A DNA stretch of 23,241 bases from a virus. The stretch lies in IMG/VR virus record IMGVR_UViG_3300025138_000380, positions 1 to 23,241 of that record; one strand, 5' to 3'. Both the position numbers and the translations under genes were made by a program. Below, piece by piece: positions 5,627 through 22,462 of this stretch. The first letter of the stretch is position 1, and every line of letters begins with the position of its first letter. The notes beneath the pieces were generated by a model, which saw only the letters and a list, made by a program, of their open reading frames with translations, made no database searches and was not told the DNA's origin.

Positions 5627-7839
5627 TGTACGAGCAAACTCTATATAAAGTATTAAAAGACCACATTAAACCTAAAGTTTTAAAAAGAAATAATAGGTAT
5701 AAAAAATGGGAGTATGGATATAACGAAGACCATGATGTCATAGTTATAAGTAAAACAGGTAAAATAGGTGAAATATATGAAATACAAAACCTAAAAATAG
5801 CTTTACCTAAACAACAAGATGTTACTAAATTTGAAGAAAACAAATGGAGTCACACCGCTTATCCTAAAGAATTAAATAGAATAAAATCAGTATTTGATTG
5901 GGAAGAGTATCCAGCAGAATTTAAAGAAAAATGGTATGACTATATTGACAAAGAATTTATTAAACGTGAAGAAGGTTTTTGGTTCTATAACCAAGGTAGT
6001 CCTACTTATATTACTGGCACTCATTATATGTACCTGCAGTGGTCCAAGATTGATGTTGGGCAACCAGACTTTAGGGAATCAAATAGATTATTCTACATTT
6101 TCTGGGAAGCTTGTAAAGCAGATACCAGGTGTTATGGAATGTGTTATCTTAAAAACCGTAGGTCAGGATTTTCATTTATGTCCTCAGCTGAATCGGTCAA
6201 CCTTGCTACAATATCAACAGATTCACGGTTTGGAATATTGTCCAAATCTGGTCCCGATGCTAAGAAGATGTTCACAGATAAGGTCGTACCAATTTCCGTC
6301 AATTATCCCTTCTTTTTCAAACCAATACAGGACGGGATGGACAGGCCTAAGACCGAACTTGCCTACAGAGTCCCTGCCTCCAAATTTACCCGTAGAAAAC
6401 TTGATTCCAATGAAACCCTTAAAGAAATTACCGGTTTGGACACCACGATCGATTGGAAGAACACCGGTGACAACTCCTACGATGGTGAAAAGCTCAAACT
6501 CCTCGTCCACGATGAATCAGGGAAATGGGAAAAGCCCAACAACATCCTCAACAACTGGCGTGTTACGAAAACCACCCTTAGATTAGGTAGTAAAATAATT
6601 GGTAAGTGTATGATGGGAAGTACATCTAACGCCTTAGACAAAGGTGGTGATAACTTCAAAAAATTATATTATGACTCAGATGTTAACGAAAGAAATGCCA
6701 ATGGACAAACTCGTTCAGGATTATATTCTTTATTCATACCTATGGAATGGAACTACGAAGGATACATTAATTCTTATGGAATACCTGTCTTCGACGCTCC
6801 AAAAAAAGATACCTTTGGACCTCATGGTCAACAAATAAGAAAAGGTGTAATAGAATATTGGCAAAACGAAGTAGATGGTCTTAAGAAAGATCAAGATGGT
6901 TTAAATGAATTTTATAGACAGTTTCCAAGAACTGAGCAACATGCTTTTAGAGATGAAGCTAAACAATCTATATTTAATCTAACTAGAATATATGAACAAA
7001 TTGATTTTAATGAAGACTGCAAAAGTGAATCGTTAATAACAACAGGTTCTTTTAATTGGCACAATGGAATAAAAGATAGCCCAAACGGTGTTATGTTTGT
7101 TCCAAACAAAGATGGAAGATTTAAAATCTCTTGGATACCACCTATTCAATTACAAAATAGATTAATATTAAAAAACGGATTAAAATATCCTGCTAATGAA
7201 CACATGGGTGCTTTTGGTTGTGATAGCTATGATATATCAGGTACGGTTGATTCTCGTGGTTCTAACGGATCACTACACGGTTTAACTAAGTTTTCTATGG
7301 AAAACGCTCCTATGAATAGCTTTTTTTTAGAGTACATAGCTAGACCACAAACAGCAGAAATGTTTTTTGAAGATGTTTTAATGGCCTGTATTTTTTATGG
7401 CATGCCAATATTAGCTGAAAACAACAAACCAAGACTTTTATATTATTTTAAAAGAAGAGGTTATAGAGGTTTTTCTATGAACAGACCAGACAAAGCTATA
7501 GCAAAGTTATCTGTAACAGAAAGAGAAATTGGCGGAATACCTAACTCTAGTGAAGACATTAAACAAGCTCATGCTGCGGCAATTGAATCTTACATAGAAA
7601 CTTATGTTGGAAATTTAGGAGAATCATATGGTGATGTTTATTTTCAAAGAACATTAAATGATTGGGCTAGATTTGATATAAATAACAGAACAAAGCATGA
7701 TGCATCAATTAGTTCTGGTTTAGCTATAATGGCTTGTAACAAAAACAAATATAATCCAATTTTTAAAAGAAAATTAGAAACAAAACCATTAGGTTTTAAG
7801 AAATATAATAACGAAGGATTTAGTTCAAAAATAATATAA
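5626..7839 (+). CDS. terL: Large terminase subunit, 737 aa
   Basis: This is the DNA-packaging motor ATPase and headful nuclease. The ATPase core has a deviant Walker A (RRSGFS at 178-183, with no Lys before the Ser) and a clear Walker B (LKLLVHDE, 290-297, with Asp296 and Glu297). The RuvC-like nuclease domain has FGCDSYD (Asp533), a MPILAEN strand (Glu598) and KHDASISS (Asp692) as the likely metal-binding triad. The length and the long N-terminal region before the ATPase fit terminases of crAss-like and related phages. The start is fixed by the TAATG overlap with the preceding gene. A block from about 6040 to 6580 uses markedly different, GC-richer codons than the rest. Two tandem stops (7837-7842) end the gene directly before the portal ATG. 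Confidence 0.9.
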   Translation: MYEQTLYKVLKDHIKPKVLKRNNRYKKWEYGYNEDHDVIVISKTGKIGEIYEIQNLKIALPKQQDVTKFEENKWSHTAYPKELNRIKSVFDWEEYPAEFKEKWYDYIDKEFIKREEGFWFYNQGSPTYITGTHYMYLQWSKIDVGQPDFRESNRLFYIFWEACKADTRCYGMCYLKNRRSGFSFMSSAESVNLATISTDSRFGILSKSGPDAKKMFTDKVVPISVNYPFFFKPIQDGMDRPKTELAYRVPASKFTRRKLDSNETLKEITGLDTTIDWKNTGDNSYDGEKLKLLVHDESGKWEKPNNILNNWRVTKTTLRLGSKIIGKCMMGSTSNALDKGGDNFKKLYYDSDVNERNANGQTRSGLYSLFIPMEWNYEGYINSYGIPVFDAPKKDTFGPHGQQIRKGVIEYWQNEVDGLKKDQDGLNEFYRQFPRTEQHAFRDEAKQSIFNLTRIYEQIDFNEDCKSESLITTGSFNWHNGIKDSPNGVMFVPNKDGRFKISWIPPIQLQNRLILKNGLKYPANEHMGAFGCDSYDISGTVDSRGSNGSLHGLTKFSMENAPMNSFFLEYIARPQTAEMFFEDVLMACIFYGMPILAENNKPRLLYYFKRRGYRGFSMNRPDKAIAKLSVTEREIGGIPNSSEDIKQAHAAAIESYIETYVGNLGESYGDVYFQRTLNDWARFDINNRTKHDASISSGLAIMACNKNKYNPIFKRKLETKPLGFKKYNNEGFSSKII
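6040..6580 (+). other. GC-rich, codon-shifted block inside terL
   Basis: Within one uninterrupted reading frame the codons switch abruptly to TCC, GTC, CTC, ACC, CCC and AAG, then back to the AT-ending codons of the rest of the window. By hand count, 6361-6420 has 27 G/C in 60 and 6481-6540 has 29 in 60, against 17 in 60 at 7321-7380. The block covers terminase residues about 139-318, which is the ATPase core with both Walker motifs. It suggests a recombined segment from a phage of different base composition, or an assembly chimera. Confidence 0.8.
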
Positions 7840-10290: not shown

Positions 10291-11469
10291 TCAAAAGAAA
10301 CAAAAGTAAAAGAACCTGTTAAACAGGAAGGTGATTTTAAAGTAAAAAAGAAAATACCTAAAAAATTAATTGTACCAGAAGAAACCGTTAAAATGGATTT
10401 TGCTGCAGTTAATAAAAAAGAAGAACCAATAAAAATAGATTTAGATGCCGTTCAAAAGCAAAGCTCAGAGGAAAGCGTGTTACTCAAAGAAGGATCCAAG
10501 GTGGAATTGCAAGCAGTGGGACAAGGAGACGAAAAACCCGTTGAGAATGTTATTAAAGAAATATCAGACTCAGAAATAGATACTAAAGAAATACAAAAAG
10601 AAGTAAAAGAAGCTGTAAGAGATCAAAAGGTATTGGGTAAACCTTTACCTGAAAACATTGAAAAGCTGGTTTCTTTTATGGATGAAGTACCGGGTTCTAC
10701 AATTGAAGATTATGTTAGATTAAATGCTGACTACTCAAATGTTGATAATAGTACTTTGCTTAGAGAATATTATAAAAACACACGTCCACACTTAGATTAT
10801 GATGAAGTTAACTTTTTATTAGAAGATAATTTTAAATATGATGAAGAGGTAGACGAAGAACGCGAAGTTAGAAAAAAGAAACTAGCGTATAAAGAAGAAA
10901 TTGGAAAAGCTAAAAGCTATTTAGATGGTCTTAAGGATAAGTATTACGATGAAATCAAGTTGAAATCAACCGTTAATCCTGATCAAAAAAAAGCTGTTGA
11001 CTTTTTTAATAGATATAATGAAGATGAAATATTGAGAACCAAGCAGCGTGCAGAATTTGAACGCATAACTAAAGACACTTTTAATAAAGATTTCGAAGGT
11101 TTCGATTTTGATTTAGGAGAAAAGAAATTTAGATATGGTGTTAAAAATCCAAGCGATGTAGTTGAAAATCAATTAGACATAACCAATTTTGTTACGAAGT
11201 TCTTAGCAGATGATGGCAGTTTAAAAGATCCAAAAGGTTATCATAAAGCCATGTATGCTGCGCGAAACGCAGATACTATAGCACAACACTTTTATGAACA
11301 AGGAAAAGCAGATGCAGTTAAAGATGTAGTTGCTAAGTCTAAAAACATTACAACTGAAGCCCGAAAAGAGGGTAATGCTGGTAGTGTTTTTGTTAATGGA
11401 ATTAAAGTTAAGTCTATAAGTGGTGCGGATTCTTCTAAATTAAGAATAAAAACAAAAAAATTTAACTAA
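10288..11469 (+). CDS. Scaffold-like protein between portal and capsid genes, 393 aa
   Basis: No enzyme motif is visible. Residues 1-110 are disordered-looking and rich in Lys, Glu and Val. Residues 120-260 are charged helices (including EEVDEEREVRKKKLAYKEE, 188-206), and 260-393 end in a basic tail (KLRIKTKKFN). Strong charge, helix content and position between portal and major capsid protein are what is expected of a capsid scaffold, which is present during assembly and later removed. The gene uses CGT, CGC and CGA for Arg more than its neighbours, which mostly use AGA. Bases about 10445-10545 are also GC-richer (25-26 G/C per 60), hinting at partly different ancestry. An alternative is another assembly or cargo protein. 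Confidence 0.6.
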   Translation: MSKETKVKEPVKQEGDFKVKKKIPKKLIVPEETVKMDFAAVNKKEEPIKIDLDAVQKQSSEESVLLKEGSKVELQAVGQGDEKPVENVIKEISDSEIDTKEIQKEVKEAVRDQKVLGKPLPENIEKLVSFMDEVPGSTIEDYVRLNADYSNVDNSTLLREYYKNTRPHLDYDEVNFLLEDNFKYDEEVDEEREVRKKKLAYKEEIGKAKSYLDGLKDKYYDEIKLKSTVNPDQKKAVDFFNRYNEDEILRTKQRAEFERITKDTFNKDFEGFDFDLGEKKFRYGVKNPSDVVENQLDITNFVTKFLADDGSLKDPKGYHKAMYAARNADTIAQHFYEQGKADAVKDVVAKSKNITTEARKEGNAGSVFVNGIKVKSISGADSSKLRIKTKKFN

Positions 11470-14785: not shown

Positions 14786-16060
14786 ATGGCTATACAACCA
14801 CAAAATAACGGATTAATAACTGAGAACAATGAGCAATACTATGCTGGATCTCAAGGATTTAGAGGTGATGCTGGTAATACTCAGAATCAATTACTTCTAA
14901 CAGACTTTAACACGGATCTTATATTAGGTAGCACCACTAGCTGGAACCCTAATGACGTTGATTATGCTTTGAATAATTTTAAGGTATATACAAGTACTAG
15001 CGGTATATCTGGTTCTTGGAGCGAATGGATTACTGCTTTAGAAGTTATTAATAACGGTAGAACAATAAAACTAGCAGCTTCACCAGGAGCCAACGTGTTT
15101 ATAGTTGTTCAACTTACTATGCTTACAGGTGGTAAATATGGAAATACAGAAGCAGAAAAAGCTTATGGCCAAGCCGTAGAGGATAATTATGGTAGTTATC
15201 AATACATAAAACTAAATGATGTTATTAATAATTTTGCCGTAGGTTATGTAGGACAAGATAAATTACTACCTAATGTAAAAAGAAGTGATATAATATTTTT
15301 TGCAAAAAGAGCTATGCAAGAATTTAGCTACGATACTTTAAAAAGTATTAAATCAGCAGAACTAACAATACCTCCATCTTTAACTTTAGTTATACCACAA
15401 GACTATGTAAACTATGTTAGATGTTCTTGGATTGATTCTTTAGGTGTTAAACATATAATATATCCTACAAACAACCTAACTATAAGTCCTTACTACACTC
15501 AAGTTCAAGACTCTACAGGTATACCTACGCAAGATAACTTTGGCAATGATGTAGAAGGAACGCCAATAACTCAAGAAAGATGGCACAGCAATAGCTCTAG
15601 TTTATCAACAGAATTAAACGGCAATTTAATACCAGATGCGGCTAATGCAGCGGAATATGGATATGGTTGGGAAGGACTTTTTGGGTTTGGATTTGGTCAG
15701 TTATATGGTCTTGATCCTCAAACGGCGCAAGGTAATGGTTGGTTTAATATAAATGAAAGAGAAAACAAGTTATCTTTTTCTAGCAATTTAGTTGGAAGAC
15801 TAATTGTTTTTGAATACATATCAGATGGATTAGCTTATGACTTAGATAGTAGACTACCTAAAATGGCAGAAGACGCTATGTATGCTTCTATACTTTATTC
15901 TTTAATGTCTACTAGAATAAATCAACCAGAGTATGTTGTTCAAAGATTAAAAAAAGATAGAAGTGCTAAATTAAGAAACGCCAAGATAAGATTATCTAAC
16001 ATTAAATTAGACGAAATATGTCAAGTTATGAGAGGTAAATCTAAATGGATAAAACACTAA
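14786..16060 (+). CDS. Connector/tail adaptor-type virion protein, 424 aa
   Basis: Residues 10-130 form a beta-rich domain (LLLTDFNTDLILGSTTSW, then GRTIKLAASPGANVFIVVQL). The core then begins with YIKLNDVINNFAVGYVG and VKRSDIIFFAKRAMQEFSYD, a helix pair typical of crAss-like and P22 gp4-like neck proteins. It is followed by IPQDYVNYVRCSWID and a beta section with aromatic/Gly-rich loops (GYGWEGLFGFGFGQLYG). The C-terminal part is helical (MYASILYSLMSTR, then RLKKDRSAKLRNAKIRLS). Its likely job is to join portal ring and tail hub. It is next to the ring-type gene and 3 bases from the giant tail gene. The N-terminal beta domain may be a lineage-specific addition. Confidence 0.65.
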   Translation: MAIQPQNNGLITENNEQYYAGSQGFRGDAGNTQNQLLLTDFNTDLILGSTTSWNPNDVDYALNNFKVYTSTSGISGSWSEWITALEVINNGRTIKLAASPGANVFIVVQLTMLTGGKYGNTEAEKAYGQAVEDNYGSYQYIKLNDVINNFAVGYVGQDKLLPNVKRSDIIFFAKRAMQEFSYDTLKSIKSAELTIPPSLTLVIPQDYVNYVRCSWIDSLGVKHIIYPTNNLTISPYYTQVQDSTGIPTQDNFGNDVEGTPITQERWHSNSSSLSTELNGNLIPDAANAAEYGYGWEGLFGFGFGQLYGLDPQTAQGNGWFNINERENKLSFSSNLVGRLIVFEYISDGLAYDLDSRLPKMAEDAMYASILYSLMSTRINQPEYVVQRLKKDRSAKLRNAKIRLSNIKLDEICQVMRGKSKWIKH

Positions 16061-16063
16061 TAC

Positions 16064-19000
16064 ATGGCAGAAGCTAAAAACAGTTTCATTAAGTCTAAAA
16101 TGAATAAAGACTTAGATGAAAGATTAATTCCAAATAACGAGTATAGAGATGCTTTAAATATAGCTGTTTCTAGATCAGAAGGTAGTGATGTTGGTGCTGT
16201 TGAGTCTATACTTGGTAATGTAATTACTGCTAGATCTACTGAAAGTGGTTTTACTATAATAGGAACTTATTCTGACGAAGGTAATAATAGACTTTATTAT
16301 TTTAGAACAAACCATACACGTTCAGGAAAAGCCCCATTAAACGCTGTTTGTACTATAGGGTATTTAAACACTTTAACTCAAGGTGACAATGTTTTGGTTA
16401 GTGGAAGTTTTTTAAACTTTAGCACACAAAGTCGTATGTATGGTATAAGTTTGATAGAAAATCAACTTTTTTTTACTGACAATAGAAATCAACCTAGAAA
16501 AATAAATATAGACCAATCTTTGGGTCACTATACGAATGAAGACCAAATATCTGTGGCTAAATTTGCACCATACTCTCCACCTTCTTTCATAAACTTAAGA
16601 TCTGGTGCTTCTTATTTTCAAGACTTAGGACCTAACGTTCCATTAAAACCTTCTACAATGTCAGACGCTCAAGATCCGTCTATTGTAGAAATAGGTATAT
16701 ATAAGTTATCTCAAGAAAACTTAGCTGTTAAAAAATACAGAAATGGTGACGAAATACCTCAGGCAACTTTATTGTCTGATTGGGTTTTAGCTGATACAAA
16801 CCAACAAGGTCGATGGTGTTATTATGAAAACTATAATGGAAACGGTGTTACTTATGGGTTACTTTATAATAAGTGGGCTGTTGTTGACCCTAGAGGTTTA
16901 GCGCCTATAGGTCACAGAATACCTACGATTGCTGATTGGAATGGCATTATTGCAGTTAATTCTACTGCTCCTGCAGCTAGTTATAAAAGTCAATTTTTAT
17001 GGGATGAAGATGATCCATCGTATGTTGCTGGTGATAACATACTAGGAACCAGTATTCTTCCTTCAGGTTACAGAGAAAATGTAGCTTCTCCAAACGCTAG
17101 AGGTTTTTACAATTTAACGACTCAAACTAAATTTTGGACTTCGGATGCTGTAGATGCAGCAAACAATAATGCTTCTGTAAGTTTTGATGTTACCAACACT
17201 ATAGACACTACAAGCGTTATACCTACGGTAGATGGTTGTGCTGTAAGAGTTTTAAGAGATGACAATTATAACGGCTGGAACGGTGATCCTGATTTTTTAT
17301 CAGACAGGTTTGTTAAGTTTTCTTATAGATTTAAATTTGAAGATAACGAATATTCTACAGTCGCTCCGTTTAGTCAAGACGTTTTTATACCTTATCAAGA
17401 AGGAGAGTTTGTTAATCAAGACGAAAACCAAGCTTTTATAACTAGTATTGTTGAGTTTATGCAAAACTCAATAAACAATGCTGTATTAAATATAGAATTA
17501 CCTTGTATAGATATTATAACTAATTATAAGATTTCAGCTATTGATATTGTTTTTAAACAATCAGATATGCAAGCTTATCAAATAATTGAAACAATAAAAG
17601 TAGATTCTAATTTTATATCTGCGTTGAATTATACTAACATATATCAATACTCTTATCAATCTACAATTCCAATAAGAACTCTTCCTGCAGTTCAATCTGT
17701 TAGAGTTTTTGATAAAGTACCAGTAAAAGCTCTTGCTCAAGAAAGCAGTGGAAACAGAATAATGTATTCAAACTACTTAGAAGGATATAGTGCACCTGTT
17801 GGTTTAGATTACTATGTTGGTGTTACTGATAAAAGTGCTCAAGAGTTTATAGAATATCCTCAGCATTCTGTAAAACAAAATAGAAATTATCAAGTAGGTA
17901 TAGTTTTATCAGATAAATATGGAAGACAAACAGATGTTGTTTTATCAAACTATGATGGATTATTAGATTCTAATGGAGATCCACAACCAGGTTCTAATTA
18001 CTACAGTGATTACAATCCAGTAAGTTTTAGTAATTCTTTACAAGCATGGACCGGTGACAATTTAGCTTTGTATTATTTACAACAAATACCTGAAGAGGCT
18101 AACGCTGGTGCTATATCTGGTTATCCTGGGGCATATGCTCAAGGAGATTACTATGAAGTTGACACTGAATTTGCAACTCCGCCAAGTGCTTTATACCCGT
18201 TTTTTAACAGTATAGGAACACAGTGCCTAATAGCCACTGCTGCACAAACTACTTTTACAACTATAATACCATACGCAGACGCTACAAATGCGGCTAATAC
18301 TTTTAATATTTTAATAGACAAAGGTAATGGATGGTTGCTACAAGAGCCTTCTACGTATTCTGTAAATCAAGACGGAACAAATGTAAAGCTTGTTTTTAAC
18401 ACAGGATTATTAGTTGGTGAAGTTGTTAAGTTTGAAGTTTTATATACTTCTAATAAATATTACAAATATTATACTGGAGCTGGATCTAGCACTGTTAGAC
18501 CTTTGTTTCCAGGCTGGCCAACCAGTTATAAAAAGTATTATGACATAGGAAGAAAACTAAAAGGTCTATATATAGATTATACTGAAATAGTTAGCATAGA
18601 TACCGTTAGTGATAGTGGTGGTGTTAGAGCTGTTACTTTTTTCACAAAAGAAGAAGTTGCTTCTAATTATTTATTTGATGACACACCTGCAACAAGACCT
18701 GAACCTAGTAAACTTGGTCAAAAAAACACCTACGCAACATACAGTATAAACGTAAATGGTTTTTATATATATAAATCTGTAGTAAAACAACAACAACAAG
18801 ATTATTATAATGTTTATCTTCCAGGTATTGTAAATGGATATCCTATAGATGGTGAAACCAAAGAACAAAACGAAATAGCTTTTGTAGCATTAATAAATGA
18901 TAATATAAATAAAATACCTAGAAATTTACAAAGCGTAGGGCCTAGTCAAGAGCAATTTACTAGCGACGTTTCAATGTGGCCTAGAATAACTAATATTATA

Positions 19001-21142
19001 GAAAAGTCATCAACAACTATAACTTACTCTACGTTTAATCAACAAATAGACCCTGAGTCTTCTTCTGATAAAGTAGATTTAATAGGTACTGTTAGAGACT
19101 TGTTTCCAGGTTTAGAAGATCTTACGGTTCCACCAGCATCTATTCCTGGAAAAGTAAATCCATTTTCAATTTATAGTTATCAAACTAAACCGTATTTAGC
19201 TAAAGTTTCTACTCAAAAATCTGTAGGTTTAGGAGAAAGTTCTTATTCAGCACCTAACACAAACACTGGTAATTATCCATATCCACAAAATATGGGTCTT
19301 GCTGTTTATGAAACAACACCATATGTTTCACCTTTAGAATTATTTTACGAATCTTCTACCGCTGACTTAATATCAGATTTAAATTTAAGTATAGAAAACG
19401 AAAATACTAATATAACAGGTATTAGCGCTTTTAGTTATAGCTTTTTAGAAAGCATGGCTTTAAATACTCAACTAACAACTGACTTTTTTCCAGTTGCTGG
19501 TGGTGTTAATTTAACAAACACTACTTTAAATCCTAACTTTACGTGTTTTAGTTATTCTTTAGATGGAAGTTTAGACACAAGTACACCTCAAGCTTCTAGA
19601 TTTGTTGTAAACTCAGGTTCTCAATCCGGTAGTTATATAATAAAAACAAACGATAGGTTTTATGCTGGATCTTCTGCAGAACCAGCTACATTTGTTGATT
19701 TTAGAGGTAAGTTTTTATTTACTTTAACGTTTATACAAAGTAATGGAGTTCAAGTAAGTCAGTCTTTAACATTACAACTAGAAAATGTTGCTCCAATTGT
19801 TGAAGTTCCTGTCATTGATATAACTGGTCTTGTAACAACAAGCAGCCCAACTATAGTCGTAATGACCAGTGGAAATCCAAAGGAATCTAACAAAGGTCAA
19901 AATGGTTCTGCTAGAAGCAACGCTGCTGGTGATCTTGAACCTTGGAACACAACGTTTGCGCCTGTTGGGTTTACTTCTGGTTGGTCAATAGATAGAATAG
20001 AAAAACTATCTGCTATAACAGGAAACACAGAAATAGCAAGAGCAACAATTGAACCTAACTCAGGTACTACAAACTTAATAACTGATTGGGTTCAGGTTGC
20101 TCAGGGTTCTAATAATTATCCTACATTTCAAAATGGTACTGCAGGAGGACCGGCGACAGATGAATGGTCTAATTTTGCTATAACTGGACGATTAAACTCA
20201 AGTAATGCTAATCCTGGTCCTTTAAACGAGGCTGGCTTTACTTATACTATATATATGAATCTTAGAGACACGCTTCAAGCACAGAGTTTACAAGTAGACA
20301 ATGCTAATAGCGCTAAAATTTCATATAGTGTTGGAGCACCTAATTATAGTACTCAGGTTACAATACTAGCATACAGTTCAAATCCCACATCAAGTTTAAA
20401 CGGGCAGTCAATGCAAGCTAGTGGTACTAATAATAATAGAGATTATAAGTTTCAATTTCAAAACTGGACTAATCAAAGAGTTTATTTATACATGGACTGC
20501 AGTATATCTAGTGCTGGTGTGCCAGGTTCTCAGGTTAACGCTTTAATGACTACTCAATTTGGTAGCGGCGCTAGTTATGGTGATGGCAATGCAACTTCAT
20601 TCACAGATGATAATGGAGCCGTGTTTAACATACAATCAAACACAGCTAATAGTTTTACTACTAATCAAAATATTCCTAACACCAACCAAGCTTCAGGTAG
20701 TTCTTCTGCTTTTATAAAAAGAGTTCAATTTGCAAGTTTACAACCTTTTGATGCGGCTTCTGGTGGATTAAGCCCCACAAACAATGATTTTACTAACTTA
20801 AAAGCTTCTGGTTTACAACCTGGTCAAAAAAGTGAAACTCCTCCAGTAACTCAAGTTTATGATTTTAGCGGTGGCGCTATTGTTAATTTAAGCACTCGTT
20901 GTAGTATTCAAAATGCTAACCCAAGTTCTCAGGGTATTTTTAATATTTACTGGTCTTATTTACCACAAGCATCTTTTTTACCAACTAATGATCCGTCTTA
21001 CGTGGATAACAGTAATCAGTTGTTTGGATGTTCTTATGTAGGCAATATAAGCCCTCCTTTTTATACAAATCAAACTGGACAGCCGGATGGTTACCCAACA
21101 GTAGGTATGGGAACCAGTCCTAGTCAATTTGATGGACCATAG
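16064..21142 (+). CDS. Giant tail stabilisation protein (P22 gp10-like, N-terminal part) with inserted lectin-fold domain, 1692 aa
   Basis: It begins with FIKSKMNKDLDERLIPNNEY (8-27) and DVGAVESILGN, the mark of crAss-like tail stabilisation or hub propellers. A Fib_succ_major (C-type-lectin-like) domain is inserted at about 208-399: ENLAVKKYRNGDEIP, TYGLLYNKWAV, LAPIGHRIPTIADW, ILPSGYR, FWTS, DGCAVRVLRD, with Cys252 and Cys392. The propeller core resumes with FLSDRFVKFSYRFKFED (411-427). A second conserved-looking motif, YETTPYVSPLELFYE, is at 1082-1096. From about 1110 to the end are Thr/Ser/Asn-rich beta domains, including a cadherin- or Ig-like strand set near 1195-1245 (FLFTLTFIQSNG, LTLQLENVAP). 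The 425-aa gene next door appears to hold the rest of the propeller. The inserted and C-terminal domains are likely to bind the host surface. Confidence 0.8.
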   Translation: MAEAKNSFIKSKMNKDLDERLIPNNEYRDALNIAVSRSEGSDVGAVESILGNVITARSTESGFTIIGTYSDEGNNRLYYFRTNHTRSGKAPLNAVCTIGYLNTLTQGDNVLVSGSFLNFSTQSRMYGISLIENQLFFTDNRNQPRKINIDQSLGHYTNEDQISVAKFAPYSPPSFINLRSGASYFQDLGPNVPLKPSTMSDAQDPSIVEIGIYKLSQENLAVKKYRNGDEIPQATLLSDWVLADTNQQGRWCYYENYNGNGVTYGLLYNKWAVVDPRGLAPIGHRIPTIADWNGIIAVNSTAPAASYKSQFLWDEDDPSYVAGDNILGTSILPSGYRENVASPNARGFYNLTTQTKFWTSDAVDAANNNASVSFDVTNTIDTTSVIPTVDGCAVRVLRDDNYNGWNGDPDFLSDRFVKFSYRFKFEDNEYSTVAPFSQDVFIPYQEGEFVNQDENQAFITSIVEFMQNSINNAVLNIELPCIDIITNYKISAIDIVFKQSDMQAYQIIETIKVDSNFISALNYTNIYQYSYQSTIPIRTLPAVQSVRVFDKVPVKALAQESSGNRIMYSNYLEGYSAPVGLDYYVGVTDKSAQEFIEYPQHSVKQNRNYQVGIVLSDKYGRQTDVVLSNYDGLLDSNGDPQPGSNYYSDYNPVSFSNSLQAWTGDNLALYYLQQIPEEANAGAISGYPGAYAQGDYYEVDTEFATPPSALYPFFNSIGTQCLIATAAQTTFTTIIPYADATNAANTFNILIDKGNGWLLQEPSTYSVNQDGTNVKLVFNTGLLVGEVVKFEVLYTSNKYYKYYTGAGSSTVRPLFPGWPTSYKKYYDIGRKLKGLYIDYTEIVSIDTVSDSGGVRAVTFFTKEEVASNYLFDDTPATRPEPSKLGQKNTYATYSINVNGFYIYKSVVKQQQQDYYNVYLPGIVNGYPIDGETKEQNEIAFVALINDNINKIPRNLQSVGPSQEQFTSDVSMWPRITNIIEKSSTTITYSTFNQQIDPESSSDKVDLIGTVRDLFPGLEDLTVPPASIPGKVNPFSIYSYQTKPYLAKVSTQKSVGLGESSYSAPNTNTGNYPYPQNMGLAVYETTPYVSPLELFYESSTADLISDLNLSIENENTNITGISAFSYSFLESMALNTQLTTDFFPVAGGVNLTNTTLNPNFTCFSYSLDGSLDTSTPQASRFVVNSGSQSGSYIIKTNDRFYAGSSAEPATFVDFRGKFLFTLTFIQSNGVQVSQSLTLQLENVAPIVEVPVIDITGLVTTSSPTIVVMTSGNPKESNKGQNGSARSNAAGDLEPWNTTFAPVGFTSGWSIDRIEKLSAITGNTEIARATIEPNSGTTNLITDWVQVAQGSNNYPTFQNGTAGGPATDEWSNFAITGRLNSSNANPGPLNEAGFTYTIYMNLRDTLQAQSLQVDNANSAKISYSVGAPNYSTQVTILAYSSNPTSSLNGQSMQASGTNNNRDYKFQFQNWTNQRVYLYMDCSISSAGVPGSQVNALMTTQFGSGASYGDGNATSFTDDNGAVFNIQSNTANSFTTNQNIPNTNQASGSSSAFIKRVQFASLQPFDAASGGLSPTNNDFTNLKASGLQPGQKSETPPVTQVYDFSGGAIVNLSTRCSIQNANPSSQGIFNIYWSYLPQASFLPTNDPSYVDNSNQLFGCSYVGNISPPFYTNQTGQPDGYPTVGMGTSPSQFDGP

Positions 21143-21184: not shown

Positions 21185-22462
21185 ATGGCAGTAATAACCC
21201 CAGTTAAATACTACAATACCTTTGTTTTAAAAAAATTAATACAAGGAGATCTTTCAGCTGCCTATAATTGGTACGTTGAAGAGTCTAGAATAAAAGGTGG
21301 TTATAACGATCCTCAAACAGGTTTATCACCAAGAGCTTTCTTAAGGTCAGAAGACAATAAACAAGAAACTCTAGGTAATTCTATAATATATTCAGGTGTA
21401 TTAAATTCTAGAACAGGTATAAATCAAACAAATCAATTTCCATCAGGAGAAGATATAACTAGATCTGTTGACCCTTCTAGAGGTAGTATTCAAAAACTCT
21501 ATGCAGAAGATACTAACTTAATTATATTTCAAGAAAATAAAGTTAATAGAGCTTTAATAGACAAAGACGCTATATTTACTCAAGAAGGTCAACCTATGCA
21601 AACAACTTCTAATGTAGTTATAGGAGCAATAGTCCCCTATGCTGGTGAATTTGGTATTAGTACAAATCCAGAATCATTTGCCGTATATGGTTATAGAAAA
21701 TACTTCACAGACGCTAACCAGGGCGCTGTTTTAAGACTGTCTCAAGACGGTATAACAGAAATATCTGCTTATGGTATGTATGATTACTTTAGAGACAGAT
21801 TTAGCACCTTACAAGGAGGTGAAGCTGTTGGAGGATGGGACATACACAATAAATGTTATACTCTTTCTTTAAAATCTAAATCTGAAAACATAGCTGTAGA
21901 AACACTTAGTTTTGATGAGCAAGTTCAAGGATGGACTAGTAGATATAGTTATAGTCCTAAAAACTTAAACAGTGTTCAAAATAATTTTTATTCTACTAAT
22001 AGTGGTGGAATATTTTTACACAATTCAACAAGTGTTAATAAAGCTACTTTTTATGGAATAACATATAATTCAACTGTAACAACTATATTTAACAAACAAC
22101 CTTCTTTGATTAAAAGTTTTAAAACAATCAACTATGAAGGTGGAGCAAATTGGGCATTGACATCTATATCTACAAATTCAGGAGATTCTGCTAATTTTGT
22201 TAATCCTTTTGTAATGCCAACAACTTTAGCTGATTTAGAGAATCAATTATTTAAAAATGAATTTAAGAAAAAAGAAGATAAGTATTTTGCTGATTTAATA
22301 AACACAACATTGTTTGCTCAAGGTGAGGTTGTTTTTGGCTCTTCAGTATCAGGCATAAAAGGTTATACAGCAAAAGCTTTGTTTACCGCTACAAATACCG
22401 CGACATCAGGAACAAATGAATTATTTGCGGTATCAACAGATTATAAAGAGTCATCTTATTAA
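21185..22462 (+). CDS. Tail stabilisation protein, C-terminal part (propeller half), 425 aa
   Basis: The sequence contains the blocks I associate with the second half of crAss-like stabilisation proteins: YNWYVEESRIKGGYND (28-43), NSIIYSGVLNSRTGINQTNQ, DPSRGSIQKLYAEDTNLIIF, NRALIDKDAI, VVIGAIVPYAGEFGISTNPE, SFAVYGYRKYF, LRLSQDGITEIS, and GGWDIHNKCYTLSL. In relatives I remember these follow the N-terminal propeller part in one chain; here they start a separate gene in the same frame 42 bases later. It probably assembles with the 1692-aa partner into the tail hub or plug beneath the connector. The last 70 residues, after KKKEDKYFADLINT, look like a small added beta domain. The next gene starts on the base after the stop. 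Confidence 0.75.
   Translation: MAVITPVKYYNTFVLKKLIQGDLSAAYNWYVEESRIKGGYNDPQTGLSPRAFLRSEDNKQETLGNSIIYSGVLNSRTGINQTNQFPSGEDITRSVDPSRGSIQKLYAEDTNLIIFQENKVNRALIDKDAIFTQEGQPMQTTSNVVIGAIVPYAGEFGISTNPESFAVYGYRKYFTDANQGAVLRLSQDGITEISAYGMYDYFRDRFSTLQGGEAVGGWDIHNKCYTLSLKSKSENIAVETLSFDEQVQGWTSRYSYSPKNLNSVQNNFYSTNSGGIFLHNSTSVNKATFYGITYNSTVTTIFNKQPSLIKSFKTINYEGGANWALTSISTNSGDSANFVNPFVMPTTLADLENQLFKNEFKKKEDKYFADLINTTLFAQGEVVFGSSVSGIKGYTAKALFTATNTATSGTNELFAVSTDYKESSY

Follow-up and report, generated by a model that had tools for sequence, protein, structure and literature searches.

The muzzle of an environmental crassvirus-related phage carries an inserted Fib_succ_major domain. We analysed a single 23,241-nucleotide stretch of viral DNA (the window; IMG/VR record IMGVR_UViG_3300025138_000380, positions 1 to 23,241). 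The explanation that we favour, and consider probable, is that a host-type domain was captured in the loop of the muzzle's IG1 domain, where it would serve as an adhesion module. The insert is a candidate means by which uncultured crassvirus-like phages could recognise Bacteroidota cells, and it marks crassvirus muzzle IG1 as a site where phages plug in foreign domains. The relevant features of the window are as follows.

14786..16060, + strand: virion structural protein, probably a tail ring protein, adjoining the muzzle upstream (PHROG_13977; position)
16064..21142, + strand: muzzle (tail nozzle) protein, first part, 1692 aa (PF25731, PHROG_14478, alignment to the gp44 and phi38:1 N-terminus); layout: ring-joining region, blades 1-2, IG1 with insert, then IG2 and tip domain, these last two assigned by analogy with gp44
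16097..16606, + strand: N-terminal muzzle region, comprising the ring-joining region and first propeller blades (PF25731, aa 12-181)
16679..17269, + strand: inserted Fib_succ_major domain, aa ~206-402 (empty-site comparison with relatives; AF2)
16712..17194, + strand: PF09603 profile match proper, aa 217-377
17270..17569, + strand: IG1 continuation after the insert (WNGDPDFLSDRFVKFSYRFKFEDNEYS...), conserved in relatives without the insert
21185..22462, + strand: muzzle protein, second part, 425 aa, most of the remaining propeller blades (PF25729, profile alignment, AF2)

The insert is carried by the crassvirus muzzle

A sequence-only reading of this DNA had taken the carrier for a tail hub protein. 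The carrier is instead the crassvirus muzzle, the nozzle at the tail tip, because muzzle profiles (PF25731, PF25729, PHROG_14478), alignments and a structural match to 7qok_A identify it as such. The crassvirus tail hub is a separate protein pair, THA/THB (PMC10172136). With the first 502 aa as query, PF25731 (crAss_MUZ) matched aa 12-181 at E 1.1e-9 (37.4 bits against a cut-off of 27); with the full 1692-aa ORF as query, PF09603 was the sole Pfam family listed. The 1692-aa ORF matched PHROG_14478 at E 1.2e-43, its start aligned by profile with that of both phi-crAss001 gp44 and the phi38:1 muzzle, and its AF2 model has strands at aa 64-148. ORF 21185-22462 matched PF25729 (crAss_MUZ_C) at E 4.1e-8 (34 bits against a cut-off of 27), and the profile alignment placed it on residues 1035-1352 of gp44 and 876-1201 of phi38:1. 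The top PDB match of its AF2 model (mean pLDDT 54) was 7qok_A, the crAss001 muzzle, at E 2.9e-7. The product of 14786..16060 occupies the position of gp43 (R1), as upstream of gp44 in crAss001.

In the window the muzzle is encoded by two ORFs, of 1692 and 425 aa, separated by 42 bases. Two ORFs also encode it in those IMG/VR relatives that were inspected (L003-L073), whereas a single gene does so in phi38:1, elemoA, ctfjg026 and crAss001. Both window ORFs were assigned to the muzzle by homology, not by gene fusion. Given the split genes, the propeller would be built from two chains. The initial view that the propeller continues on both sides of the insert needs amending, as the next ORF, 21185-22462, codes for the bulk of what remains of the propeller. 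In L045 (6001-10921) and L049 (6001-11028) the first muzzle frame is itself split into two ORFs, possibly through assembly error.

Among named systems, phi-crAss001 gp44 (PDB 7QOK; PF25731/PF25729) resembles the window muzzle in its N-terminal family, in following the gene of a ring-type protein and in the C-terminal model match. It differs in lacking Fib_succ_major, in its short IG1 loop and in being one gene instead of two. Cellulophaga phage phi38:1 (Pervagoviridae) and Flavobacterium phage elemoA share the order of genes flanking the muzzle and ~31-33% identity over the first ~180 aa, but theirs is a single gene with no domain in the loop.

The insert is a Fib_succ_major domain

The segment at aa ~206-402 is a genuine Fib_succ_major domain, as had been proposed from motifs that are indeed present in the translation. 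PF09603 matched ORF 16064-21142 at E 6.7e-19 with 69 bits, where the gathering cut-off is 33.9. A search of the record returned 16712-17194 at E 2.6e-22, and across searches the window domain scored 69-74 bits, above the 33.9 cut-off. The match covers positions 10-167 of the 187 in the profile; those of L014 and L012 reach 187. The span first noted, 16682-17260 (aa 207-399), lies within a few residues of the empty-site boundaries (about aa 206-402).

AF2 modelled aa 201-400 with pLDDT mostly 75-93 by block. The best predicted viral structure match was an uncultured phage protein annotated as a Fibrobacter succinogenes major paralogous domain (E 5.6e-15, 188 columns). The top 50 PDB matches of the 502-aa model, which combines the domain with the muzzle N-terminus, were mainly propellers (Foldseek). 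Sequence searches of solved structures with the domain gave none at E <0.05. A C-type-lectin-like fold has been reported for a wider group of targets of diversity-generating retroelements (DGRs) (PMC8143477). The conserved residues of the domain, mostly at G/W/Y/N positions, look like a fold core.

By sequence, the insert lies in an IG1 loop that is an insertion hotspot

IG1 is an Ig-like domain that spans gp44 residues 163-292, between propeller blades 2 and 3 (PMC10172136). Read by eye, the gp44 counterpart of the insert site is KIEVSKVNGSGAFGQGVIQYAFTYYNKYGKETN, inside IG1, so the insert seems to lie in the loop that joins the first two IG1 strands. The automatic profile alignment to gp44 ended before this stretch, and placement was made by sequence instead of gp44 coordinates. 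Also by eye, IG1 after the insert matches the gp44 stretch VIQYAFTYYNKYGKETN, and Y421, R422, D427, E429 and S431 are invariant columns in the alignment of relatives. The segment is an insertion in a propeller-bearing protein, as the sequence-only reading held, but on these comparisons it would interrupt IG1 between blades 2 and 3 and not a propeller blade.

Relatives without the insert pass from ...ISVAKYAPYxPI... to ...GDPxFLEDKFVRFSYRFKFDDxEYS..., and what separates the two is other domains or next to nothing. phi-crAss001 has a short loop, as do cultured Cellulophaga and Flavobacterium phages; in phi38:1, elemoA, ctfjg026 and L070 no more than a short linker occupies the site. Because the loop is short in cultured phages and is filled by different domains in some other relatives, the alignments indicate that it is an insertion hotspot. 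Muzzle length variation has been ascribed to insertions in the crass and IG2 domains (PMC10172136), and the IG1 loop would be an additional site beyond these.

Other occupants of the loop were also seen. In L055-L062 a different stretch of 60-70 aa (about 6500-6800) lies there, and in L065-L073 still others, L070 having almost nothing. In L046 and L047 (about 6950-7200), and also in L051, a glycine-rich domain of ~65 aa with GSGYT.G-type repeats is nested inside Fib_succ_major.

The domain was gained once and inherited mainly vertically

Scored by its entry motif, the insert is present in 53 of 72 IMG/VR relatives. It is missing from the other 19 of the 72 and from the cultured relatives, a presence/absence pattern that bears out its initial description as an insert. 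These counts agree with profile searches of subsets; PF09603 matched 21 of 33 aligned relatives, and exactly one copy was found in each of 32 of 44 contigs, with none in 12 outgroup contigs, a recurrence that far exceeds chance. A search with the domain itself found 98 relatives, from which 80 loci were kept, many being contigs already in the relative set. The domain lies within the muzzle N-terminal ORF at 79 of the 80; the remaining locus, L086, has an interrupted frame upstream. No close copy turned up in annotated phage records, where the lone match was a Microcystis phage at 26% identity. A search of the literature turned up no report of a lectin-type tail domain in a marine crAss-like phage.

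In a quick domain tree the phage domains group together among the bacterial ones (SH-aLRT 98), and insert carriers form one group in a quick muzzle tree built without the insert (SH-aLRT 99). Domain and core distances are correlated (Mantel r 0.82; 0/999 permutations as high), with the domain evolving faster (mean distance 0.58 vs 0.35). These data indicate that the domain was gained once and then inherited mainly vertically. Fast swapping of the domain between phages is rejected by the Mantel correlation and the single clade, with some pairs deviating from the fit.

The closest non-phage relatives are domains of predicted Bacteroidota lipoproteins

By sequence, the nearest non-phage relatives of the insert are C-terminal domains of Bacteroidota lipoproteins. 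The closest clearly bacterial match is the C-terminus of a 657-aa Flavobacterium limnosediminis protein with a lipobox-like start (L159/L168), which belongs to the Fib_succ_major family and is 51% identical over query aa 13-97. The domain is C-terminal in this predicted lipoprotein, whereas it is internal to a tail protein in the window phage. PF09603 occurs in 28 of 151 genomes of the F. limnosediminis family. Among 34 bacterial ORFs counted, the domain stands at the end in 27, and a simple pattern picks out a lipobox-like start in 20.

Because the nearest non-phage relatives are lipoprotein C-terminal domains, there is good support for one capture event, with a host-type surface protein as the source. 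The origin in host surface proteins first suggested for the domain thus gains support, from the closest bacterial relatives and the tree, for host-type surface lipoproteins. The domain tree with bacteria is a quick one, with several long bacterial branches and many weak forks. Because the trees are quick and those branches long, we infer the direction of transfer, from bacteria to phage, from the wider spread of the PF09603 family in bacteria.

The closest full-length match in genome contigs was a 28.8-kb contig of a Flavobacteriaceae metagenome-assembled genome (MAG). This contig is itself probably phage, because it encodes a muzzle. L157 (CALKFR010000081.1), binned in a Flavobacteriaceae MAG, encodes a muzzle with the insert and gives a weak hint at the host.

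The domain shows mostly ordinary variation and no signs of a retroelement

Hypervariability of the retroelement type had been anticipated, and one reading would make the domain a receptor binder that is a current or recent DGR target in these phages. DGRs target members of the Fib_succ_major family in human-gut metagenomes and Bacuni phages (PMC4159848, PMC8143477), and L006 and L008 differ at 10 domain residues vs 0-3 in flanking regions. However, a reverse transcriptase (PF00078) was found in none of 38 related contigs, a set that excludes the window record and in which contigs may be incomplete; four of the insert carriers among them measure 59-66 kb, vs about 60-73 kb for cultured relatives. 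Domain DNA was repeated neither in the window nor in 20 of 21 loci. Synonymous and nonsynonymous changes occurred at about equal frequency, L006/L008 included, and the C-terminal tip is more variable than the domain. The negative reverse-transcriptase and self-repeat searches and the ordinary ratios largely refute the DGR hypothesis, which we regard as extremely improbable. The targets of Bacuni phages, with their DUF1566/Fib_succ_major motifs, share the family's proposed use as a phage adhesin but are diversified through a DGR (PMC8143477), whereas the window phage lineage has no DGR signs. The exception among the 21 loci, L047, has at 11134-11186 a 53-base, 77% identical repeat of part of the DNA of its extra nested insert.

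Between close pairs, nonsynonymous changes in the domain generally did not exceed synonymous ones in the rows used, those that count about 200 domain codons. Exceptions, on small numbers, were L013/L049 (4 vs 1), L006/L008 (10 vs 9) and the window/L002 (1 vs 0). For L015-L021, L027, L028 and L038 mis-set boundaries (the end placed at the first GDP following STM, or a misplaced start) left only 31 domain codons counted, which understates the domain in those rows. Pooled over pairs that are not independent, 125 of 245 close-pair domain differences fall within aa 336-395, vs roughly 27% expected by length, and this segment is a possible contact face.

The insert would most likely act in adhesion

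We propose that the ancestor of one environmental crassvirus-related phage lineage, probably on Flavobacteriia-like hosts, acquired a Fib_succ_major domain like those that end Bacteroidota surface lipoproteins. This domain would have entered the short IG1 loop of the muzzle, a hexameric tail-tip protein, with mainly vertical inheritance since. It is most likely an outward-facing adhesion module contacting a ligand on the host surface, present in six copies per virion if the muzzle is hexameric as in phi-crAss001. Such contact would help to dock the tip or to sense contact ahead of nozzle opening. The tip of the muzzle is believed to touch the cell (PMC10172136), and elsewhere the family is a putative phage adhesin or DGR target (PMC8143477, PMC4159848). 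An extra domain of ~195 aa in the IG1 loop would be expected on the outside. Adhesion is the best reading because of this tip-cell contact, the family's occurrence on lipoproteins and among putative adhesins, and the expected exposure of a loop domain; a receptor- or glycan-contacting role is plausible. We consider it quite doubtful, if conceivable, that the captured domain binds the surface partner of the host's own Fib_succ_major lipoproteins and that this contact, rather than a tail fibre, triggers muzzle opening.

The main rival to adhesion is a structural role, which we judge unlikely. The loop may simply tolerate domains, and this one may serve as stiff filling or bracing, lending the muzzle stability or packing on neighbouring subunits and tail fibres, without any host ligand. 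That several different or unidentified domains fill the same loop in relatives, with none in some, agrees with such a role, as does vertical retention under ordinary purifying selection. Against it, the relatives of the domain are C-terminal surface-lipoprotein domains, its family is a known adhesin and DGR target, and the close-pair differences concentrate in aa 336-395. We also weighed a depolymerase or other enzyme acting on surface polysaccharide during penetration. A weak phmmer match to 5aoh (E 0.056) runs across a GYRLPTLAEW-like motif, presumably one associated with formylglycine-generating-enzyme-like proteins. No Pfam enzyme family matched the domain, even at E 10, and the predominance of core-like G/W/Y/N among its conserved residues also argues against catalysis, so that an enzyme seems very unlikely.

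Counting against adhesion, the insert varies less between close relatives than does the C-terminal tip, a more obvious determinant of specificity. Mean pairwise identity among 18 members is 47% in the domain, 61% in the first 195 aa and 37% in aa 901-1692, with a drop to roughly 20-35% across aa 1320-1690. The C-terminal tip of the first muzzle product (window 20024-21139, aa 1321-1692) is the most variable muzzle region between relatives and is a candidate host-range determinant.
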